The notes under the pieces were generated by a model, which saw nothing but the letters and a program-made list of their open reading frames with translations, was not told the origin of the DNA and did no database searches. Below are positions 18,208 through 32,012 of a stretch of 64,000 nt of DNA, one piece after another. The stretch is from Sphaerochaeta sp. (GTDB lineage Bacteria > Spirochaetota > Spirochaetia > Sphaerochaetales > Sphaerochaetaceae): NCBI GenBank assembly GCA_022482495.1, contig JAKVPA010000009.1, positions 1 through 64,000 on the forward strand, read 5' to 3'. Both the position numbers and the translations under genes were made by a program. The number at the start of each line of letters is the position of its first letter. The first letter of the stretch is position 1.

Positions 18208-20076
18208 TTACCAGGCGCCGCCCCCGCCACCACCGAAACCACCCCCGACGAACCCACCACCACCGAATGACGAATGGATGGGGCCACGGGGCGTGGAAGC
18301 CGCTTGGGCATACAGGTTCCGAGCGACGGAGGATTGGAGCGAGCCGATCATGGCGCCCAGCATCATGGCGTCTCCCAAAGAGCCCGCGGGGCCATCGCAC
18401 CAGGCGGGATTCTCCACCATGATGCCCTGGAACTTCCGGGCCCATTTCTTCTCCAATCCAAACACGATGGCGTAGGACAGAACGTGATAGTACAGCTGCG
18501 GATTCTGGTCGATCATCATCTTCAGTTGCTCGATCTTCGCCGTTGCGATGAACTCACGGTAGCCCAGCGTCTCTCCCAATACCTTCACGCCGTACGGGCT
18601 TCTCCTGCCGATGAACGCGGAGACGGTCGCCGCGAAAGCAGACAGCACCGTGGAGGAGAGAGCGATCACCACACCTTTCCATCCTTCCTGGTACAAGGAA
18701 TATCCAACACCCCCGAAACAGATGAAGGTCACGACGATCCCCACCAAGGCGGCGAGGAACAACCGGGCTTTGGATACGGTCAACGACCAGGAAGCGATGA
18801 ACCGTGCCATGACGGAAGCGACGCCCACACTGATGATCCCCAGAAGGAGCACTTGGGCGCTCTCCACATCCAGAAACCCTTTTTCCACCGCGACGACAGA
18901 CACCAGCACGGGAAGAAATGAAAGGATGCCGGCGATCGCCTTAACCCGGTCAGCCTTGCCATCCTGCAAGGCGTTCTCCCCATGGGAGAACCGATACTTC
19001 ACCGCCGCCTTCACCGCCGTCACATCCTTGGAAAAACGAGTACTCTTCATTTCGGAAAGGCGAACCACGCCATCCGTTCCGCAACGGAAGAACGCGTCGA
19101 AAAAGTCCTGTTCATAGGGTTGTCCACCTTCCGGTTCCTTGATTTTGGTGAACACGTACTCCTGCGACTGGAACAGTTTTTTCTGCGGCAAGGAAATCGA
19201 AAGACACCCCTTGTCCGCCCAGTAGAACACCATGGCGGAGAGATCCTTGGGGTCGACCGATCCATCGCTGAGATACCCTACGTCCATCGGCGAAAGCCCT
19301 TGAGGCGCGTCAAACCGGACGACGGGAATGACGGGATCATCACGACCATACCGCAGGAACAGCCAGATGGTCAACGCGATGACAATGAGCGCGGAAAGAA
19401 GCGAGACTCCTGTGGCAAGGGTTGACCAATCCTTCTCCTTGACCACCGAAGCGAAATATCCTTCCGGGAGTTCGATGCGGAGGTTCAACCCTTTTCCTTC
19501 CCCGAGGTTCTGGGCTGACCCACTGACGACCAGACGGTCGGAAGAGACGGTGAACGAGCCCGGCGTATCTGAACCTTCCGCCCCCACCGCGACCCAAATC
19601 CGGGTGGGATCGACGGGGTGCGGCATGATGACGGAAAAGGAGAACCTCTCGATCGGGCATTCCCACGAAGTTCCCAACAGGTCATACAGAAGTTCGTCAT
19701 AGGCGGGGTTCCGGTCATCCCCGATGGCGTACTGGTAGGAGATCACATAGCGTTGCGCCCCTTGGACATACCGGTTGGCGTCTCCCAGGCGGAAGGTCAG
19801 ATAATCATCCGATACGGAATCCCGTGTCATGGGGACGGTAGATTGAAGATGGGATACTCCCACCCGTTTGTCTCCAAACCGGATAGGAATGGATCGATAG
19901 ATCCCATGGCGCGGCATGGAGAAGTACACGTCGATCGTCTCCGTCACGGAAAGGACATTGGCATCACTGGCCACCACATCCATCCGGTAATCGGTGATGG
20001 TATAATCCGTCGCCGCCCACACTGATGCGGTTATGGTGACAAGCAGCGCCATCAAGAGGCCCAACGTTCGTTTCAT
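18208..20076 (-). CDS. DUF2207 domain membrane protein
   Basis: Exported membrane protein of 622 aa with an N-terminal signal peptide cleaved near VWAA (about residue 21). An extracytoplasmic DUF2207 domain (about 25-210) is followed by one helix, a cytoplasmic region, two further helices around residue 370-440, and a C-terminal tail. The tail ends in SSFGGGGFVGGGFGGGG, the typical glycine-rich end of this family. Function is unknown in all bacteria. It overlaps the phosphorylase gene by 4 bp, so it is the last gene of a four-gene operon. Confidence 0.88.
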   Translation of the reverse strand: MKRTLGLLMALLVTITASVWAATDYTITDYRMDVVASDANVLSVTETIDVYFSMPRHGIYRSIPIRFGDKRVGVSHLQSTVPMTRDSVSDDYLTFRLGDANRYVQGAQRYVISYQYAIGDDRNPAYDELLYDLLGTSWECPIERFSFSVIMPHPVDPTRIWVAVGAEGSDTPGSFTVSSDRLVVSGSAQNLGEGKGLNLRIELPEGYFASVVKEKDWSTLATGVSLLSALIVIALTIWLFLRYGRDDPVIPVVRFDAPQGLSPMDVGYLSDGSVDPKDLSAMVFYWADKGCLSISLPQKKLFQSQEYVFTKIKEPEGGQPYEQDFFDAFFRCGTDGVVRLSEMKSTRFSKDVTAVKAAVKYRFSHGENALQDGKADRVKAIAGILSFLPVLVSVVAVEKGFLDVESAQVLLLGIISVGVASVMARFIASWSLTVSKARLFLAALVGIVVTFICFGGVGYSLYQEGWKGVVIALSSTVLSAFAATVSAFIGRRSPYGVKVLGETLGYREFIATAKIEQLKMMIDQNPQLYYHVLSYAIVFGLEKKWARKFQGIMVENPAWCDGPAGSLGDAMMLGAMIGSLQSSVARNLYAQAASTPRGPIHSSFGGGGFVGGGFGGGGGGAW

Positions 20077-20792
20077 ATTCGTTCCTTCAACAAAACAGTT
20101 CGGATGGCCCCGAGCAATGAGGACGCCAGCGATCCGGCATCTGCGTCGGAGAGGAACGCCATCCCCTCTTCCGCGACTCCGGCGGCCCAGTTGACGCTGT
20201 ACGCCACGGCGGCCATGGCGATGCCGGCCTCTTTGGCCAGTGTCGCTTCCGTCCCCAGCGTCATGCCCACATAGTCGGCGCCAAGTGCGCGATACGCCCG
20301 GATCTCCGCCTTGGTCTCAAGCCGAGGCCCGGGGGTGGTCACATACACGCCCCCATCCTTCCATGTGGGATTTCCAGCCAGCAACGTGGAGCGGAGATTC
20401 TGGTCAAACGGCTGGTCCATCGCCACATGACGCACTCCCGCTTCACCTCCGGTGAAGAACGTCCCCTGACGGGAAGCGGAAGCGAAATCCAGAAAATCGG
20501 CTACCACGGCACACTGCCCCGGCAGGAGGAACCGGGTGATCGAGCCGACGGCATACACGCCGACAAGCGCGTCCACGCCCAGTTTCTTCAATGCCGCGAT
20601 GTTGGCGCGGTAATTGACCAGATGAGGTGGCGTGTCATGCAGCGAGCCATGGCGGGCGAGGAACACCAGAGAGGTGTCCTTCCCTTCCCCGATGGATACC
20701 GGCACAACGCCAAAGGGAGTTGATATCCTTCTCTCCGTCACCTGAATGCCATTTGGGTGATCCAGTCCCGTTCCTCCGATGATCGCTTTCAT
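20073..20792 (-). CDS. methylthioadenosine/methylthioinosine phosphorylase (MTAP/MTIP family)
   Basis: Purine nucleoside phosphorylase of the MTAP/MTIP group, 239 aa. It would cleave 5'-methylthioadenosine or 5'-methylthioinosine with phosphate to free base and methylthioribose-1-phosphate. The phosphate-binding GGTGL at residues 7-11, FLARHG, the conserved VNYRANI and TPGPRLETKAEI are present. The short N-terminus and MTLGTEATLAKEAGI are reminiscent of Pseudomonas MTIP, but specificity cannot be settled by eye. It lies between an MtnA-like gene (10-bp gap) and the DUF2207 gene (overlap). Confidence 0.85.
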   Translation of the reverse strand: MKAIIGGTGLDHPNGIQVTERRISTPFGVVPVSIGEGKDTSLVFLARHGSLHDTPPHLVNYRANIAALKKLGVDALVGVYAVGSITRFLLPGQCAVVADFLDFASASRQGTFFTGGEAGVRHVAMDQPFDQNLRSTLLAGNPTWKDGGVYVTTPGPRLETKAEIRAYRALGADYVGMTLGTEATLAKEAGIAMAAVAYSVNWAAGVAEEGMAFLSDADAGSLASSLLGAIRTVLLKERI

Positions 20793-20801
20793 CAGCGCCT
20801 C

Positions 20802-21761
20802 CTAGATGATGCCCTCCGGTGTCACGATGTGGGTGACCAGAGACCCGGGGATTCGGTCAAACGCCGGATACAACCCTTCCACCGAGGGATCGGTTACCGG
20901 TTGTCCCATGCAGTGGGTCACTTCCTTCCCATCCCGCCACTCCACCACCATCTCTTCCATGGTTCGTTTGGTAGGATCGGGAGAGACGGCGAACACCACG
21001 TACGGAATATGATGATACGATGCAGCGATGGCGTTGGGAAGGGTGCCGGTCTTGTTGGCAACGCTCCGGTCTGCGCAAACAAGATCGCAGGCGGTCAGGT
21101 AGATGTTCACCAACCCCTCCGCCATGCAGGCAGCCCCCGCTCCATCGGTGATCAACCGTACATCAAAGCCCAGCTCCTTCAGGCTTGGCGCGGTAAGCCG
21201 CGCTCCTTGCAGGTAGGGCCGGGTTTCGTTGACCAATACGGAGACCTGTTTCCCTTGTTCCCTGGCGAACTGCAACGTAGAGCAGAGGGAATGCTCGGCG
21301 AAGCAGGTGGTGAGCACCTTGGCGTCCTGAGGAAGCAACGATGCTCCCAGCTTCCCCATCGCAAGGTAATCCTGTTGGAATTGGTCCAACGTCCGGGCAA
21401 CCAACGTCTGGAGTTTATCCGCGTAATCCGCGTCCCCTTTCTCCTGGGACAGAAGAGAAAGCACGGTGCGCTTCATCGTGGTGTTGGTGGGGCGCGCCTG
21501 GATGATCTTTCCCATATCCGATTCCAGCGCGGAGAAAGAGGCGCTTTTCCGCGCAAGGTACGGGAGCGCCTGAAGGGCGACTTCCAGTGGTCCGCCCCCT
21601 TGGGTGACCATGTCCTTGATCGCCTGGGCGATTTCCTGGGCGTTGTGGCAGGCGACGAATTCCCTTCGGAACGGGAACACCCGTCGGTCGCCTATCAACA
21701 AGGCGCCATGTTCCACCCGAGCGATGTTCTCGCCGCGAAGCAGGTACGGCAGCGTGATCAT
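20802..21761 (-). CDS. MtnA-like methylthioribose-1-phosphate isomerase (eIF2B family)
   Basis: Sugar-phosphate isomerase of the eIF2B/MtnA fold, 319 aa, slightly shorter than typical MtnA (about 350). The catalytic cysteine is seen in VLTTCFAEHS and the catalytic aspartate in VCADRSVANKTGT. NETRPYLQGARLTA is a hallmark of the family. It would convert methylthioribose-1-phosphate, the product of the next gene, to methylthioribulose-1-phosphate. Ribose-1,5-bisphosphate isomerase is a related alternative. It overlaps the deaminase gene by ATGA. Confidence 0.82.
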   Translation of the reverse strand: MITLPYLLRGENIARVEHGALLIGDRRVFPFRREFVACHNAQEIAQAIKDMVTQGGGPLEVALQALPYLARKSASFSALESDMGKIIQARPTNTTMKRTVLSLLSQEKGDADYADKLQTLVARTLDQFQQDYLAMGKLGASLLPQDAKVLTTCFAEHSLCSTLQFAREQGKQVSVLVNETRPYLQGARLTAPSLKELGFDVRLITDGAGAACMAEGLVNIYLTACDLVCADRSVANKTGTLPNAIAASYHHIPYVVFAVSPDPTKRTMEEMVVEWRDGKEVTHCMGQPVTDPSVEGLYPAFDRIPGSLVTHIVTPEGII

Positions 21762-24840: not shown

Positions 24841-25485
24841 TTATCTGATCGGTTGGTTCTTATTCGCCTTCCACAGTTCCGTGAAGCTGATGATCTGTTT
24901 CACGCACCCGTCGATGCCCAGCATCCCGCTGTCCAACGACAGGTCGTACGTCCGGCACATCCCCCACTTCCGGTCACTGTAGTAGTTGTAGAAGTTGGCC
25001 CGTTTCTTGTCGTTCTTCAGGCAGACATCCTCGGCGTCAGCAGGCGCGACCTGGTAGATGTCGATGGCCCGTTTCTTCCGGTCTTCGATCGGGGCATGGA
25101 TGAACACGGAAACCAGATCCGGATGATCCCGCAGGATGTAGTCGGCGCATCGCCCAACGATCACACAGCCACTCTGCTCCGCCAGTTTTTTGATCGTCTT
25201 GCTGAGGATCAAAAACAACTGGTCGTTCAACGGCATTTCCGTGACTCCGATGGCCCCGGTCGCCAACGGATAGCTTCCCACCACCAGCGAGTAGAACAGG
25301 CTGCTTGAGGCTTTCTCATCAGCATTGGCGAACAGCGCTTCGGACAACCCGCTGTCCTTGGCGGCCAACGCGACCAGTTCCTTGTCATAGAACGGAATGC
25401 CCAGCTCGTTGGCAAGCCGTTTGCCTACCTGTCGACCACCGCTTCCAAACTGTCTCCCAATGGTAAACACCGTACTGCAACTCAT
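24841..25485 (-). CDS. cytidylate kinase-like family protein
   Basis: P-loop kinase of 214 aa in the cytidylate-kinase-like group. The P-loop is FTIGRQFGSGGRQVGKRLA (about 7-25), VIVGRCADYILRD (about 108) and FIHAPIEDRKKRAID (about 127) follow. These proteins phosphorylate small molecules but are not the housekeeping Cmk. GAGGAGG precedes the ATG at 25485, and an extended -10 (TGGTATACT) lies just upstream. It follows the HemA-like/cyclase gene by 40 bp on the same strand. Confidence 0.83.
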   Translation of the reverse strand: MSCSTVFTIGRQFGSGGRQVGKRLANELGIPFYDKELVALAAKDSGLSEALFANADEKASSSLFYSLVVGSYPLATGAIGVTEMPLNDQLFLILSKTIKKLAEQSGCVIVGRCADYILRDHPDLVSVFIHAPIEDRKKRAIDIYQVAPADAEDVCLKNDKKRANFYNYYSDRKWGMCRTYDLSLDSGMLGIDGCVKQIISFTELWKANKNQPIR

Positions 25486-25525: not shown

Positions 25526-27235
25526 TCATCGCAAGGCAATGACACGCGCCGGAGCGCCATCCCCATCAATCGGCAGGGGAAGCACCAGAAGCCGCACTGT
25601 CTGTCCGACAAGAGCCCGGGTCCCGGTGAGATTCTCAACGATCAGGCCATCGGCGGAGAAAATACGTCGGTGGATCGGATATGATGCGTCCACGTCAGGA
25701 CTGGGAGTGTCAAAGGCGAACAGATGGATGCCACGGGCCAGCAACCGCTCCACATCCGCATCAGAGAGCACGGGGTATCCTTCCAGGTACGCTTTCGTCC
25801 CCCACTTCCCCTCCCATCCGGTGGAAACCACCACCATGTCCACTCCGTCGGGGACGGAACGGACATCCATTCCATCCATCACGTAGGCCGTACCGATGAA
25901 ACGGGAAAGCGGGAACCGTCCCAGCGTTTTCCCCTGTGGAAGCAGATGGGCCGGAGCGTCCACATGGGTCAGGCTGTGGCTTCCCAGCGTGATCCGTTTC
26001 ACCCGGTATCCATCGCGTTCCAACGAGAAGGAATCCTGGATATCCACCGCGGGATCGCCGGGATACAATGCTGGTGTCGGGACAAGCGGATGGCTGAGGT
26101 CGACGACATCCTCGCTCAGGCCATGGGAAAACAGCTGGTGAATGACACTCTTGTACGCCGTATCGGCAAGCTGATGGGAAAACTCTGTTTCATCGGCAAT
26201 ACCAAGCTTCCCCACGACAGGATGCATCCGGAACACCAGATCCTCCGCAGCGGCTTCGGCCAACGAGGAGATGGAATGGGTTTCCCGCTCCCGTTTGAGC
26301 CATGCCTTGAATTCCCCCAATGTTCTCTGGATCATCACGTTGCTTTGGGCGATGTTCTTCTCCCTGTTTTCCCGCCGGTAGGAGAGATCGGCATCCCGAA
26401 CCAACCGGACGCCATTCCTCCCCGCCAACCCGTCCTCCACGTCATGAGGATTGGCAAGGTCGATCACCAACGCGTTCTCCCGCATCGGCGCGGTTTGGGA
26501 AAGCGCGTACTCCAACCCTTTGGTAGCGCATATCACGACGGAATAGGAGTGCAACAACGAAAAGCGCCCATCATAGGAGACTGGTTCCACACCAGGAGGA
26601 ACCAATTCCGTCTTTCGTTCATCCCGAAGCGTCATGCGCACACGACATCCTTTTTCCGTGAGGAACGACGCGACCATCCGACCCGTGGCGCTGGAGCCGA
26701 TCACCAAAACGGGCAGCCCCTCATGGGGATGGATCACATCCGCCAATGCGGTACAGAGATGGGGTTCACACTGATCCAGATCCAGCAGGCTGTGCGCTTT
26801 TTTCCCCACGGTAACGGCAAGGCGGAACAGTTGCTGGGTGACCGGTGTGGCGCACCCACTGTTTCGTGACAGGATGGCGGCATCCTCCAGCTGGCTGATG
26901 ATTGCATCCTCCCCGAAGAGGGGTGAATGCAGGCCACAGGCAAGCTCAAACAACCAGGTGACCGCCGCGTCACCTTCCCTGCGATAGGCAACATTCTTCC
27001 ATCGAAGCGGGCTGGTTCCAAACACACGGCACAGTGGCTCATACCCGTCGGCGTTGCCATCTTCCTGCCACAACTCCACACGGTCACAGGTGGAGAGAAG
27101 CACGGCGCCATGACACCGAACGCGGGTTTTCAGCTCCACCAACAGATCGGAGAGCCGTCCACGATCGGCCAGGGCGAACACCGTCCGATCCTCGGGGGGA
27201 ACATCTGAAAACTGGATTCCATTTACCGTGAGCAT
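25526..27235 (-). CDS. glutamyl-tRNA reductase-like protein fused to a cyclase (PF04199-type) domain
   Basis: A 569-aa fusion. Residues 1-375 align with glutamyl-tRNA reductase (HemA): LLSTCDRVELW puts the catalytic cysteine at 50, GLHSPLFGEDAI and LVIGSSATGRMVASFL (NADPH domain) follow, and a C-terminal dimerisation helix ends LFSHGLSED. Two conserved positions differ: Asn after the cysteine is Asp, and the active-site histidine near 94 is Trp. From about 378 a metal-dependent cyclase/kynurenine-formamidase domain begins (VVDLSHPLVPT), with metal motif SHSLTHVDAPAH near 420. No other tetrapyrrole gene is nearby. It overlaps the Ogg gene by 13 bp. Function uncertain. Confidence 0.8.
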   Translation of the reverse strand: MLTVNGIQFSDVPPEDRTVFALADRGRLSDLLVELKTRVRCHGAVLLSTCDRVELWQEDGNADGYEPLCRVFGTSPLRWKNVAYRREGDAAVTWLFELACGLHSPLFGEDAIISQLEDAAILSRNSGCATPVTQQLFRLAVTVGKKAHSLLDLDQCEPHLCTALADVIHPHEGLPVLVIGSSATGRMVASFLTEKGCRVRMTLRDERKTELVPPGVEPVSYDGRFSLLHSYSVVICATKGLEYALSQTAPMRENALVIDLANPHDVEDGLAGRNGVRLVRDADLSYRRENREKNIAQSNVMIQRTLGEFKAWLKRERETHSISSLAEAAAEDLVFRMHPVVGKLGIADETEFSHQLADTAYKSVIHQLFSHGLSEDVVDLSHPLVPTPALYPGDPAVDIQDSFSLERDGYRVKRITLGSHSLTHVDAPAHLLPQGKTLGRFPLSRFIGTAYVMDGMDVRSVPDGVDMVVVSTGWEGKWGTKAYLEGYPVLSDADVERLLARGIHLFAFDTPSPDVDASYPIHRRIFSADGLIVENLTGTRALVGQTVRLLVLPLPIDGDGAPARVIALR

Positions 27236-27969
27236 GGCAATACCCCGCTTTGCGCTGCCTGGAACAGATACTGCTGGGCCAAGGCCTGATACGGCGCGAA
27301 CATCAAAGGAGTCTTTCCAGAAAAATAACAGGCCATGACCTTTTTCATCCACGTATCCATCGGGAATACATCCATCCGGTGACACCCGTACAACAGGATG
27401 CAGTCGGCGACTTTGGGACCGATGCCGCTTCGGGCGATCAATTGGTTTCGCGCTTTGGAAGTCGGCAGATCATCAGGAATCTCGGAGAACTCCTCCACTG
27501 CTTTGACGATGTAGGCGCCCCGATACCCAAAATGAAGATCCCGCAATTCAGATTCCGTCGCCCGTCCCAGTTGCTCTCGGGTGGGAAACGCGTACCACGA
27601 TCCTTCCACATGGGTGCCGTACATCCGGCAGAGCGCGTCATACATCGTTGTGATCCGCTTGATGTTGTTGTTCTGGCTCATGATGAAGCTGATCGTCGCG
27701 ATCCATTGGCTCTGGCGAAGGATGTGCAGCCCCGGATGCAGGGAAATGGCATTTGCCAAGACAGACGACAAGGAGGCAAGATATCCTCTTGCCTCCTTGT
27801 AAGGGAAGTCCATGTCAAAATAGTCTGACAGGCCTTCCTTCCCGATGTCTTCCTGGTGACGAACCGTCACCACACGGCCATCGAGTACGGTCTGAAAGCA
27901 TCCCGCCTGCGCCTTCCACGAGAAGCACTGCCCCCCGAGGAGCGTTGCGGGAAAATCAACCACGTCCAT
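27223..27969 (-). CDS. 8-oxoguanine DNA glycosylase/AP lyase (OGG1/AlkA type)
   Basis: HhH-GPD DNA repair glycosylase of 248 aa. GGQCFSWK near the N-terminus, MSQNNNIKRI and the helix-hairpin-helix SGIGPKVADCILL (catalytic lysine in GPKVADC) match bacterial OGG1. The essential aspartate is in VFPMDTW (about 200). It removes oxidised guanine from DNA. It is the first gene of a three-gene minus-strand unit with the fusion protein and the kinase-like gene. Confidence 0.88.
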   Translation of the reverse strand: MDVVDFPATLLGGQCFSWKAQAGCFQTVLDGRVVTVRHQEDIGKEGLSDYFDMDFPYKEARGYLASLSSVLANAISLHPGLHILRQSQWIATISFIMSQNNNIKRITTMYDALCRMYGTHVEGSWYAFPTREQLGRATESELRDLHFGYRGAYIVKAVEEFSEIPDDLPTSKARNQLIARSGIGPKVADCILLYGCHRMDVFPMDTWMKKVMACYFSGKTPLMFAPYQALAQQYLFQAAQSGVLPCSR

Positions 27970-28005: not shown

Positions 28006-28374
28006 TTACGCTTTCCAAAGCCCATGCTTGTTGCAATAGGCGTAGACGTTCTTCACCTTGTCGCCAGACAGAATGGCGAACTCAGCTTCCGGCTTCATAC
28101 CCGGTTTCAGATCTTTGCGCTGATAGCCCTGCTCAGTCTCCAGAGCGATCCACTCGATGTAGTGATCCGGTTCCATCGGATGAGGTACAGAACCAACAAC
28201 AACCTTCACTTTGCCTTTCTCTTCAGTCAAAACGGGGACGTGCTTCTCTTTCGCGGCATCCGTGGTATTCGGAACCAGTTCCGTCATCGGGTCTCCGCAG
28301 CAAGTGACCGTACCGCCACCGACTTTGACGAATTCAACAATGTTTCCGCAATGCATACACTTCAAGAATCTCAT
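28006..28374 (-). CDS. dfx: desulfoferrodoxin (superoxide reductase)
   Basis: Two-iron superoxide reductase of 122 aa, which reduces superoxide to peroxide without making oxygen, as is usual in anaerobes. The N-terminal rubredoxin-like iron site is CMHC (6, 9) and CC (25, 26). The catalytic iron ligands are visible as KEKHVPV, VGSVPHPMEPDHYIEW and AYCNKHGLW. GGGAGGTGCC precedes the ATG and a strong promoter lies upstream, so it is probably highly expressed. Confidence 0.95.
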   Translation of the reverse strand: MRFLKCMHCGNIVEFVKVGGGTVTCCGDPMTELVPNTTDAAKEKHVPVLTEEKGKVKVVVGSVPHPMEPDHYIEWIALETEQGYQRKDLKPGMKPEAEFAILSGDKVKNVYAYCNKHGLWKA

Positions 28375-29672: not shown

Positions 29673-30170
29673 ATGTATACCGAATGCGTGTTACCGATGA
29701 CGGAGATGGATGCCCAATCGTTCCTCCAGAGTGATCCCGAGGAGATGCGCCGGAGGTTTGAGGCAGTCATCCAGACGGAAGGTCCGATTCTGGACAGCCT
29801 TCTGGAAAAACGGGTGCTCCGCTCCTATGGTTTGGTGAAGCGGGGAAGCAGGATTCGCCCGTTGATGGACCGTATCCTGGAAGCAATGGATACGGAACGC
29901 ACCTGGCAGGTATCCGCCGATGGCAAGCGGCATGCCGTCTATTGGCCGGAATCCTACCGCGGAAAAGACAAGGCGACGTTCACCGAATGCAGGATTCCCA
30001 GTGATCGTGACATCATGGAAATCCCGCTGTGCGAGGTGGCCAACCTGATGCGGAGCATCGGCGTCAAACAAAAAACCAAGCTGTTCAACCTTACGGCCAA
30101 ACAGCTTGGCTACGCGCGCAAGGGAGCGAACATCAGAAAGACGTTCGCCCTCGCCTATCCGCTTATTTGA
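29673..30170 (+). CDS. stand-alone DUF3320-type protein
   Basis: 165-aa protein that resembles the DUF3320 segment normally found at the C-terminus of large superfamily-I helicases. It has an N-terminal helical part ([19 protein letters not shown]) and the closing [16 protein letters not shown]...[11 protein letters not shown] block. On its own it may be a nucleic-acid-associated accessory domain. TATACT lies just upstream of a GTATACTTGGGG leader. The ATG at 29697 is an alternative start. Its 3' end overlaps cysK by 8 bp on the opposite strand. Confidence 0.7.
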
Positions 30171-31095
30171 TGTCTTCGAACAACCAGGTGGACAGATAGC
30201 GCTCACCCGTATCGGGAAGAAGCGCGACGATCGTCTTGCCCTTGTTCTCCGGCTTCTTTGAGTACTCCAGGGCGGCGGACAGGGCTGCACCGGAAGAAAT
30301 ACCGATCAAAAGGCCTTCCTCACGGGCCGCGGCGCGCGCCGTCTGACCGGCTTTGGCGTCATTCGCCTCGAACACATCGTCCAGCACGGAACGATCAAGC
30401 ACCTCGGGAACGAATCCCGCGCCGATGCCCTGGATCTTGTGCGGACCGGCATGCCCTTCCTTCAGGACCGGGCTGGTCTCCGGCTCAACGGCAACAATCT
30501 TTACGTTGGGGTTCTTCTCTTTCAGATACTTGCCGATACCGGTCACCGTGCCACCGGTGCCGACGCCGGCGATGAACACATCCACGTTATGTCCGGAATC
30601 TTCCCAAATCTCCGGACCGGTGGTGGTGTAATGGGCTTTCCAGTTGGCCGGGTTGGTGAACTGGCTGGGGATGAACGAACCAGGGATGGAAGCCGCGATC
30701 TCTTTGGCTTTGGCGATGGCGCCGCTCATTCCTTTGGAGCCTTCGGTGAGCACCAGCTCAGCGCCAAAGGCGGCAAGTAGTTTTCTGCGCTCGATGGACA
30801 TCGTCTCCGGCATGGTGATGATCAGATGATATCCCTTCACCGCCGCGGTGAACGCCAATCCGACACCGGTGTTTCCACTGGTCGGCTCAACAAGCGTTGC
30901 TCCCGGTTTGATGATTCCGCGCTTCTCCGCGTCGTCAATCATGGCGAATCCAATACGATCCTTCACGGAAGAGCAAGGATTGAAGCTCTCCACCTTGACC
31001 AGCACGGTCGCGTAACCGTCCTTGTTCAATTTATTGATCCGTACCAGGGGAGTATGTCCGATGGTCTGCGTGATGTCCTGATAGATGTGCGACAT
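30163..31095 (-). CDS. cysK: cysteine synthase A
   Basis: PLP enzyme that makes cysteine from O-acetylserine and sulfide, 310 aa, the usual size. The PLP lysine is in SSVKDRIGF (about 45), the substrate loop is [12 protein letters not shown] and the phosphate loop is [13 protein letters not shown] strong promoter with repeated TAGTAATT elements lies upstream, and two Rrf2 regulators precede it on the same strand. This suggests control by cysteine or Fe-S status. Confidence 0.96.
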
Positions 31096-31200: not shown

Positions 31201-31611
31201 TCAGATTTGGAAGAAAATCTTGCTGTTCAGCAAAAGATCAGCCAATGTTTTGCCAGAGAGCAGTTCGGACAACTTTCGGTCCACCACTTCGTACAGGTAC
31301 ACGCGGAGGCACATTTCATATGGGTTCTCGTCCGTATTCTTCTCCGGAGTGATGCAGATATCCCCTTCCAACGCGGAAAGAATCTCGTACAGCGTGATGG
31401 CATGTGCGGAACGGGAAAGCTGATAGCCTCCGTTCTTTCCTTTCGCGGAAACCAAAATCCCGTTTCTTGAAAGCGACAACGCCAGTTGCCGGAGATACTG
31501 GATGCTGATGCCTTGCCGTTCGGCCACCATGGAAAGGGTCACCGGAGCGGGATGAGCGGCGATGTCCGCCAGCATCCGAAGCCCGTAACGGGCGCGTGTG
31601 GTCAGTTTCAT
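31201..31611 (-). CDS. Rrf2-family transcriptional regulator
   Basis: 136-aa winged-helix regulator with the Rrf2 N-terminus KLTTRARYGLRMLADIA and SIQYLRQL, RNGILVSAKGKNGGYQL. Only two cysteines lie in the usual cluster region (GDIC and EMCLRV), so an IscR-type 2Fe-2S site is unlikely; CymR-like control of cysteine genes is a better fit. It overlaps the second Rrf2 gene by ATGA and lies 105 bp upstream of cysK. Confidence 0.88.
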   Translation of the reverse strand: MKLTTRARYGLRMLADIAAHPAPVTLSMVAERQGISIQYLRQLALSLSRNGILVSAKGKNGGYQLSRSAHAITLYEILSALEGDICITPEKNTDENPYEMCLRVYLYEVVDRKLSELLSGKTLADLLLNSKIFFQI

Positions 31612-32012
31612 ATGCCCATCCCTTTGACCATCGAGGCCAAGTTCCCGGCCAGTTGTTCCATCGTGATGGAATCGGCCGTCTGGAAGATCAAATCCTCCAT
31701 TTCATCCCAAAACGACTCGGTGACGCATTCCCCGTTGCGGGAACATTTCCGACAGGGAAGCTTCAATCCCCCCTCACTGGCGGAAAGCACATCCTGGCAG
31801 GTGATGCCTTTGCGCGCCAACGTGTAGCCACCCGTCGCGCCTCGCGAGGAGGTGACCAATCCCGCTTTGCGCAGGGGAATCATCAATTGCTCCAAGTATC
31901 CGAACGGGATGCCCGTCGCCTGATGGATTTCCGTGCCGCTGCGGGGCACGGAGGATGATGCCAGATACAACATCGCTTCAAGACTGTACCGTCCTTTTGT
32001 GGATAACTGCAT
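31608..32012 (-). CDS. Rrf2-family transcriptional regulator with cysteine cluster
   Basis: 134-aa Rrf2 protein (QLSTKGRYSLEAMLYLA at the N-terminus, GYLEQLM, SSRGATGGYTLAR). Unlike its neighbour it keeps three cysteines in LPCRKCSRNGEC, spacing C-x2-C-x5-C, which could bind an Fe-S cluster. It lies directly downstream of the DUF1846 gene (8-bp gap) and overlaps the other Rrf2 gene. Confidence 0.88.
   Translation of the reverse strand: MQLSTKGRYSLEAMLYLASSSVPRSGTEIHQATGIPFGYLEQLMIPLRKAGLVTSSRGATGGYTLARKGITCQDVLSASEGGLKLPCRKCSRNGECVTESFWDEMEDLIFQTADSITMEQLAGNLASMVKGMGI

Follow-up and report, generated by a model that had tools for sequence, protein, structure and literature searches.

Glutamyl-tRNA reductase (GluTR; HemA or GtrR) is the textbook point of entry to heme, chlorophyll and B12. 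Its product, glutamate-1-semialdehyde (GSA), is an unstable compound believed to reach HemL from HemA by channelling (PMC6399207; PMC7242693). Redirection of a first-step tetrapyrrole enzyme to another product has been described in the secondary metabolism of actinomycetes, for cyclizing 5-aminolevulinate synthases (PMC4525017). For the gene considered here, which joins a GluTR-like protein to a cyclase domain in Sphaerochaeta sp., a search of the open-licence literature, covering heme and B12 in Sphaerochaeta as well as GluTR-like, orphan or fused proteins, returned no description of the fusion, which is in itself weak evidence.

We analysed a window of 64,000 nucleotides (contig JAKVPA010000009.1; the window is this whole stretch) and compared the fusion with its counterparts in related genomes. 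Judged by its sequence, the protein is very probably a conserved, functional derivative of GluTR that serves no tetrapyrrole pathway. Our preferred account, which we advance tentatively when taken as a whole, is that a GluTR was recruited out of tetrapyrrole synthesis and became fused with a metal-dependent hydrolase or cyclase. This recruitment is supported at the sequence level by descent shared with GluTRs of the B12-operon type, by the lack of tetrapyrrole partners and by conservation of both halves, and also by an intact thioester cysteine, substrate arginine and metal site.

Gene structure and domain architecture

The minus strand of the window carries at 25526-27235 a single uninterrupted open reading frame of 569 amino acids plus stop, with its ATG at 27235 and its stop at 25526. 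Its parts are as follows.

25526..27235, minus strand: GluTR-cyclase fusion gene (one open reading frame, Pfam domains, orthologous fusions in relatives)
26789..27220, minus strand: GlutR_N catalytic domain, residues 6-149 (Pfam and alignment to 1gpj; T49, C50, D51, R52, E54, W94 at the His position, Q115)
26396..26722, minus strand: Rossmann dinucleotide-binding domain (Shikimate_DH), residues 172-280 (Pfam and AlphaFold2 model; G180-S181-S182, R204-D205)
26123..26371, minus strand: predicted long spinal helix (289-343) and short helix (349-371), at the place of the canonical GluTR dimerisation domain (AlphaFold2 model)
25529..26116, minus strand: domain of the cyclase or kynurenine-formamidase fold, residues 374-569 (putative metal ligands H420, H424, D426, H522 and E534; catalytic-type H430)

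Pfam assigns residues 6-149 to GlutR_N (PF05201; E 7e-25, 87.9 bits against a cut-off of 27), residues 172-280 to Shikimate_DH, the nucleotide-binding fold of GluTR (E 2e-7, above the gathering score), and residues 378-514 to Cyclase (PF04199; E 2e-18, 67.7 bits against a cut-off of 23.1). The first-pass annotation had described a GluTR-like half running straight into a complete cyclase domain, and the reading frame and Pfam matches bear this out. The dimerisation domain, PF00745, has no match in the fusion protein even at E 1. In an AlphaFold2 model (mean pLDDT 87; pTM 0.58, which makes the domain arrangement uncertain) the GluTR catalytic domain is followed by a Rossmann domain modelled with high confidence, the long spinal helix, the short helix and then the cyclase fold. 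VIA-align matches the model to Methanopyrus kandleri GluTR (1gpj) with Z 23.8 and an rmsd of 11.4 over 354 residues, which we read as domain shifts, and to kynurenine formamidase (4co9) with Z 23.4 and an rmsd of 2.2 over 192.

Distribution and genomic context

Our sample of the family comprised 139 genomes of Sphaerochaetaceae-like spirochaetes, of which 71 encode the GluTR half (counted from the distribution table). These consist of 18 with the full-length fusion, in two genera (g1 and g3), two more in which the fusion is cut or frame-broken, three that have GluTR alone at the fusion's locus, and 48 that belong to genera g11 and g16. Six of the full-length fusions lie in single-contig genomes of a second genus, and the named contigs that bear fusions are labelled Sphaerochaeta, Sphaerochaetaceae, Spirochaetaceae, Spirochaetia or Spirochaetales. 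Across unsaturated pairs of the fused form, most Nei-Gojobori dN/dS values lie at about 0.1-0.25 for either half, so that each, by this measure, is under purifying selection. One contig (L122, 1291-1864, in G162; the contig is shared with L073) has the cyclase half of the fusion split over two frames, through either sequencing error or decay.

The genes around the fusion are these.

27223..27969, minus strand: OGG-type HhH-GPD DNA glycosylase, the conserved upstream neighbour; its 3' end overlaps the fusion start codon by 13 nt
24841..25485 (about), minus strand: Cytidylate_kin2-like kinase, the conserved downstream neighbour; the mechanical open reading frame starts at 25638, and a start near 25485 matches relatives
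30163..31095, minus strand: cysteine synthase A (CysK), in the wider conserved neighbourhood
31201..32012, minus strand: two tandem Rrf2-family regulators, in the wider conserved neighbourhood

The neighbours are thus a DNA glycosylase and a kinase-like gene, as first reported, and the 13-nt overlap suggests co-translation of the former with the fusion. Relatives that possess the slot largely conserve the order Rrf2-(Rrf2)-CysK-...-OGG-[variable]-cytidylate-kinase-like-DUF386, and none of these conserved neighbours (DNA glycosylase, cytidylate-kinase-like gene, DUF386, CysK, Rrf2) suggests a pathway, nor does any neighbouring gene point to one using GSA. Elsewhere in the window, an open reading frame at 28006-28374 (minus strand), upstream of the DNA glycosylase, resembles desulfoferrodoxin (superoxide reductase) by eye, and an MTAP-like phosphorylase is paired with an MtnA-like isomerase at 20073-21761 (minus strand); both members of this pair score under their equivalog cut-offs, and the pair is conserved near the fusion locus in several relatives.

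The slot between the OGG and kinase-like genes holds GluTR only in G021, G023 and G045, cyclase only in G037, G156, G170, G164 and G165, and the fusion in further relatives. Two separate adjacent genes, which would have told against the first-pass reading, were looked for and did not occur in any relative examined. Since three relatives keep GluTR alone and five keep the cyclase alone at one locus, the coupling of the halves is not obligatory, and the cyclase cannot depend solely on a GluTR product. Support in the cyclase-domain tree was too weak to place the solo cyclases, and a tree of the neighbouring genes was used instead. With OGG, the kinase-like gene and CysK, the cyclase-only genomes fall among fused species of genus g3 in two groups, both with support of 100/100, the deeper forks being weak (down to 58/49); the simplest reading of these sequences is that the GluTR half was lost twice within the fused lineage.

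These patterns bear on the strongest alternative, in which each half has a job of its own and the order of genes in an operon led incidentally to the fusion. It would combine an orphan GluTR-like enzyme with a generic metal-dependent amidohydrolase or cyclase, the latter perhaps replacing the lost GluTR dimerisation domain. The single-half genomes, the apparent double origin of the cyclase-only groups, the full metal site kept by solo cyclases and the failure to detect PF00745 in the fusion all favour it. However, 18 genomes from two genera keep the fusion, each half of it under constraint, and no genome was observed to carry both as separate genes. We regard this alternative as possible, if on balance doubtful.

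Active-site residues

Residues were scored in 27 orphan GluTRs, 13 fusions among them, and in 16 partnered GluTRs (five clostridial and 11 other, canonical sequences). T49, C50, R52, E54, Q115 and R204 are invariant in the alignment of all 27 orphans, and the fusion accordingly keeps the thioester cysteine (C50) and the substrate arginine (R52). D205 is present in 27/27 orphans against 0/16 partnered enzymes, the position being Thr in six of the 11 canonical GluTRs; D259, like R204 and D205, is invariant. In Rossmann folds an acidic residue at a position of the D205 type disfavours the 2'-phosphate of NADPH, so it is plausible, from sequence, that the orphan GluTRs use NADH rather than NADPH.

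Serine (S182) replaces the second glycine of the dinucleotide motif in 13/13 fusions. Residue 94, at the position of the catalytic His (His99 of Escherichia coli, His84 of M. kandleri), is His in all five clostridial and all 11 other partnered GluTRs; among the 13 fusions it is His in eight, Tyr in four and Trp in one, the protein of the window. Two unfused orphan GluTRs of group 2 (L078 and L084) have Arg at this position. Alignment with 1gpj and relatives confirms the substitutions noted at first sight in the window protein, with Cys50 kept, Asp51 in place of Asn and Trp94 in place of His. Two points are amended: Trp94 is unique to the window protein, and one of the 11 comparison GluTRs likewise has Asp at position 51. 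Most fusions retain the histidine, which weakens the stress laid on its replacement.

The cyclase half has a complete HxxTHxDxPxH motif with the downstream His and Glu, and all eight residues (H420, T423, H424, D426, P428, H430, H522 and E534) are invariant in the eight fusions examined and in five solo cyclases. Against the arylformamidase (KynB) equivalog TIGR03035 the fusion scores 66.9, below the cut-off of 223.05.

An alternative suggested by this mixture is that the GluTR half has lost hydride transfer. It might act as a Glu-tRNA-dependent acyl-enzyme, in which Cys50 would accept glutamate from tRNA as a thioester and then lose it to water or to a different nucleophile, or as a sensor that only binds charged tRNA and controls the cyclase. 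Such a role would fit the invariance of Cys50, Arg52 and Glu54 beside a variable His position (W/Y/H/R) and the altered glycine and NADP motifs; it sits poorly with a retained and confidently modelled Rossmann domain, with invariant R204, D205 and D259, and with His in most fusions. We consider it unlikely.

Origin of the orphan GluTRs and absence of a tetrapyrrole pathway

In a maximum likelihood tree of the GluTR half, the 27 orphan sequences group together in a single clade (support 100/98). Its sister group is the clostridial GluTRs, to which it lies nearer than it does to canonical GluTRs from other spirochaetes. The clostridial sister appears to function in tetrapyrrole synthesis, since one member (L083) is found among hemL, porphobilinogen synthase, hemC-cobA-hemD and cbi genes. 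Under the hemA equivalog model TIGR01035 (cut-off 209.55), L083 scores 248 and a canonical spirochaete GluTR 414; the window fusion scores 109.9 and two unfused orphans 168 and 102, all three below the cut-off.

The genome of the window contains no second GluTR or hemA, leaving the fusion as its single GluTR. It also has no porphobilinogen synthase (ALAD, hemB), no porphobilinogen (PBG) deaminase (hemC), no HEM4 (uroporphyrinogen synthase, hemD) and no hemL over its cut-off. Its sole TP_methylase-fold protein is the 16S rRNA methyltransferase RsmI, which leaves it with no tetrapyrrole methylase. Tetrapyrrole genes had been reported missing nearby, and they proved to be missing from the rest of the genome too; nor did the search find a heme or B12 pathway for which the fusion could be the only reductase. 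ALAD is likewise absent from all 139 family genomes (0/139) and PBG deaminase from the 18/18 checked. Among 101 relatives of the same class, ALAD accompanies GluTR in 10/10 GluTR-bearing genomes outside the family against 0/19 inside it. We therefore reject a hidden tetrapyrrole pathway, given that ALAD, PBG deaminase, HEM4 and a qualifying hemL are all absent. In G068, from another spirochaete family, a genome with ALAD, a GluTR of 678 aa (L100, 634-2670) is extended at its N terminus by about 290 residues that match no Pfam family.

One fusion-bearing genome, G058, encodes a HemL-like class III aminotransferase (L032, 1480-2958, minus strand) adjoining an open reading frame that resembles class II aldolase, and a similar gene occurs in G024, which also holds the fusion. 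These proteins score 275 bits or less against the hemL cut-off of 527 and are missing from the genome of the window, and we therefore discount them as a general partner.

It is accordingly very improbable that the enzyme is a remnant still supplying GSA for 5-aminolevulinate (ALA) in heme or B12 synthesis. Its closest outside relatives are B12-operon GluTRs and two genomes have the HemL-like gene just described, yet the lack of ALAD across the family and of PBG deaminase in 18/18 genomes contradicts this role unless an unrelated route from ALA to PBG exists, and the gene is kept in 71 genomes, its fused form being demonstrably constrained. Least credible of all is an assembly or sequencing artefact joining two genes, for which the window gene gave no support and which 18 full-length fusions among relatives, six of them in single-contig genomes, rule out.

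Proposed function

Returning to recruitment out of tetrapyrrole synthesis, the suggestion of a repurposed enzyme, made from the window alone, is well supported by the single GluTR, the lack of hemB, hemC, hemD and a qualifying hemL, and a GluTR half in 71/139 genomes. The orphan GluTR probably now makes something other than heme or B12 precursors. In the mechanism we propose, the N-terminal half would take glutamyl-tRNA(Glu) and form a glutamyl thioester on Cys50, which would be reduced to GSA, possibly with NADH rather than NADPH, given Asp205 at a position often occupied by Thr or Ser in canonical enzymes. With no HemL to receive it, the unstable amino-aldehyde, or its closed lactam or lactone, would go to the C-terminal metal-dependent domain, which would open or close the derived ring and so yield a small non-tetrapyrrole glutamate derivative. 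Given the instability of GSA and its presumed channelling between HemA and HemL, it is reasonable for an acceptor domain to be attached covalently.

The complete sequence of GSA formation, handover to the cyclase domain and a non-tetrapyrrole glutamate product is nevertheless speculative, and we rate it as rather unlikely to hold in full, since halves that can occur apart speak against a two-step enzyme in which both are obligatory. Against it also stand S182 in 13/13 fusions and Trp at the catalytic His of the window protein, changes from which the reductase step could be weak or gone. The first-pass annotation had gone further, to an aminoacyl-tRNA-derived product and coupling of reductase to cyclase; the fusion and the repurposing are borne out, the product is conjectural and the coupling is not obligatory. 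A widespread and apparently undescribed branch of GluTR outside tetrapyrrole synthesis, which in some Sphaerochaetaceae is bifunctional, reducing tRNA-bound glutamate and cyclising or opening the amino-aldehyde to a new metabolite, is thus a conjecture that we put forward with low confidence.

A GluTR branch in some 70 species unable to make tetrapyrroles implies that tRNA-bound glutamate, or its semialdehyde, has a use not yet recognised, and the bifunctional reading, if true, would add another extra-translational use of charged tRNA. That one slot holds GluTR by itself, the fusion or the hydrolase by itself, depending on the relative, is a natural experiment that makes function testable.

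Comparison with known systems

With GluTR (HemA/GtrR), represented by M. kandleri 1gpj, the fusion shares the catalytic and nucleotide-binding domains, the spinal helix, the thioester Cys, the glutamate-binding Arg and the overall fold. It differs in falling under the hemA equivalog cut-off, in having no detectable PF00745, in the changes at D205, S182 and W94, in lacking HemL and HemB partners and in its added C-terminal hydrolase. The clostridial B12-operon GluTRs (L080-L086) are the closest sister clade and have the segment LFGEDQII in common with the orphans; unlike them, they keep His, lack D205 and adjoin hemL, hemB, hemC or cbi genes, and L083 passes the hemA cut-off. Bacterial kynurenine formamidases and other PF04199 proteins (4co9; isatin hydrolase 4j0n) share with the fusion both the fold and the full HxxTHxDxPxH, His and Glu site, whereas the fusion fails the arylformamidase equivalog, is covalently joined to GluTR and has no kynurenine context in its neighbourhood. 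Its anatomy, as read from sequence, is that of a GluTR plus a PF04199 hydrolase, yet it should not be filed as either HemA or kynurenine formamidase because both equivalog tests fail. Automated annotation would probably name orphan GluTR genes hemA and so to imply a false heme or B12 route. The cyclizing 5-aminolevulinate synthases differ in that they are unrelated enzymes, belong to the C4 route and are tied to secondary metabolites containing a C5N unit (PMC4525017).
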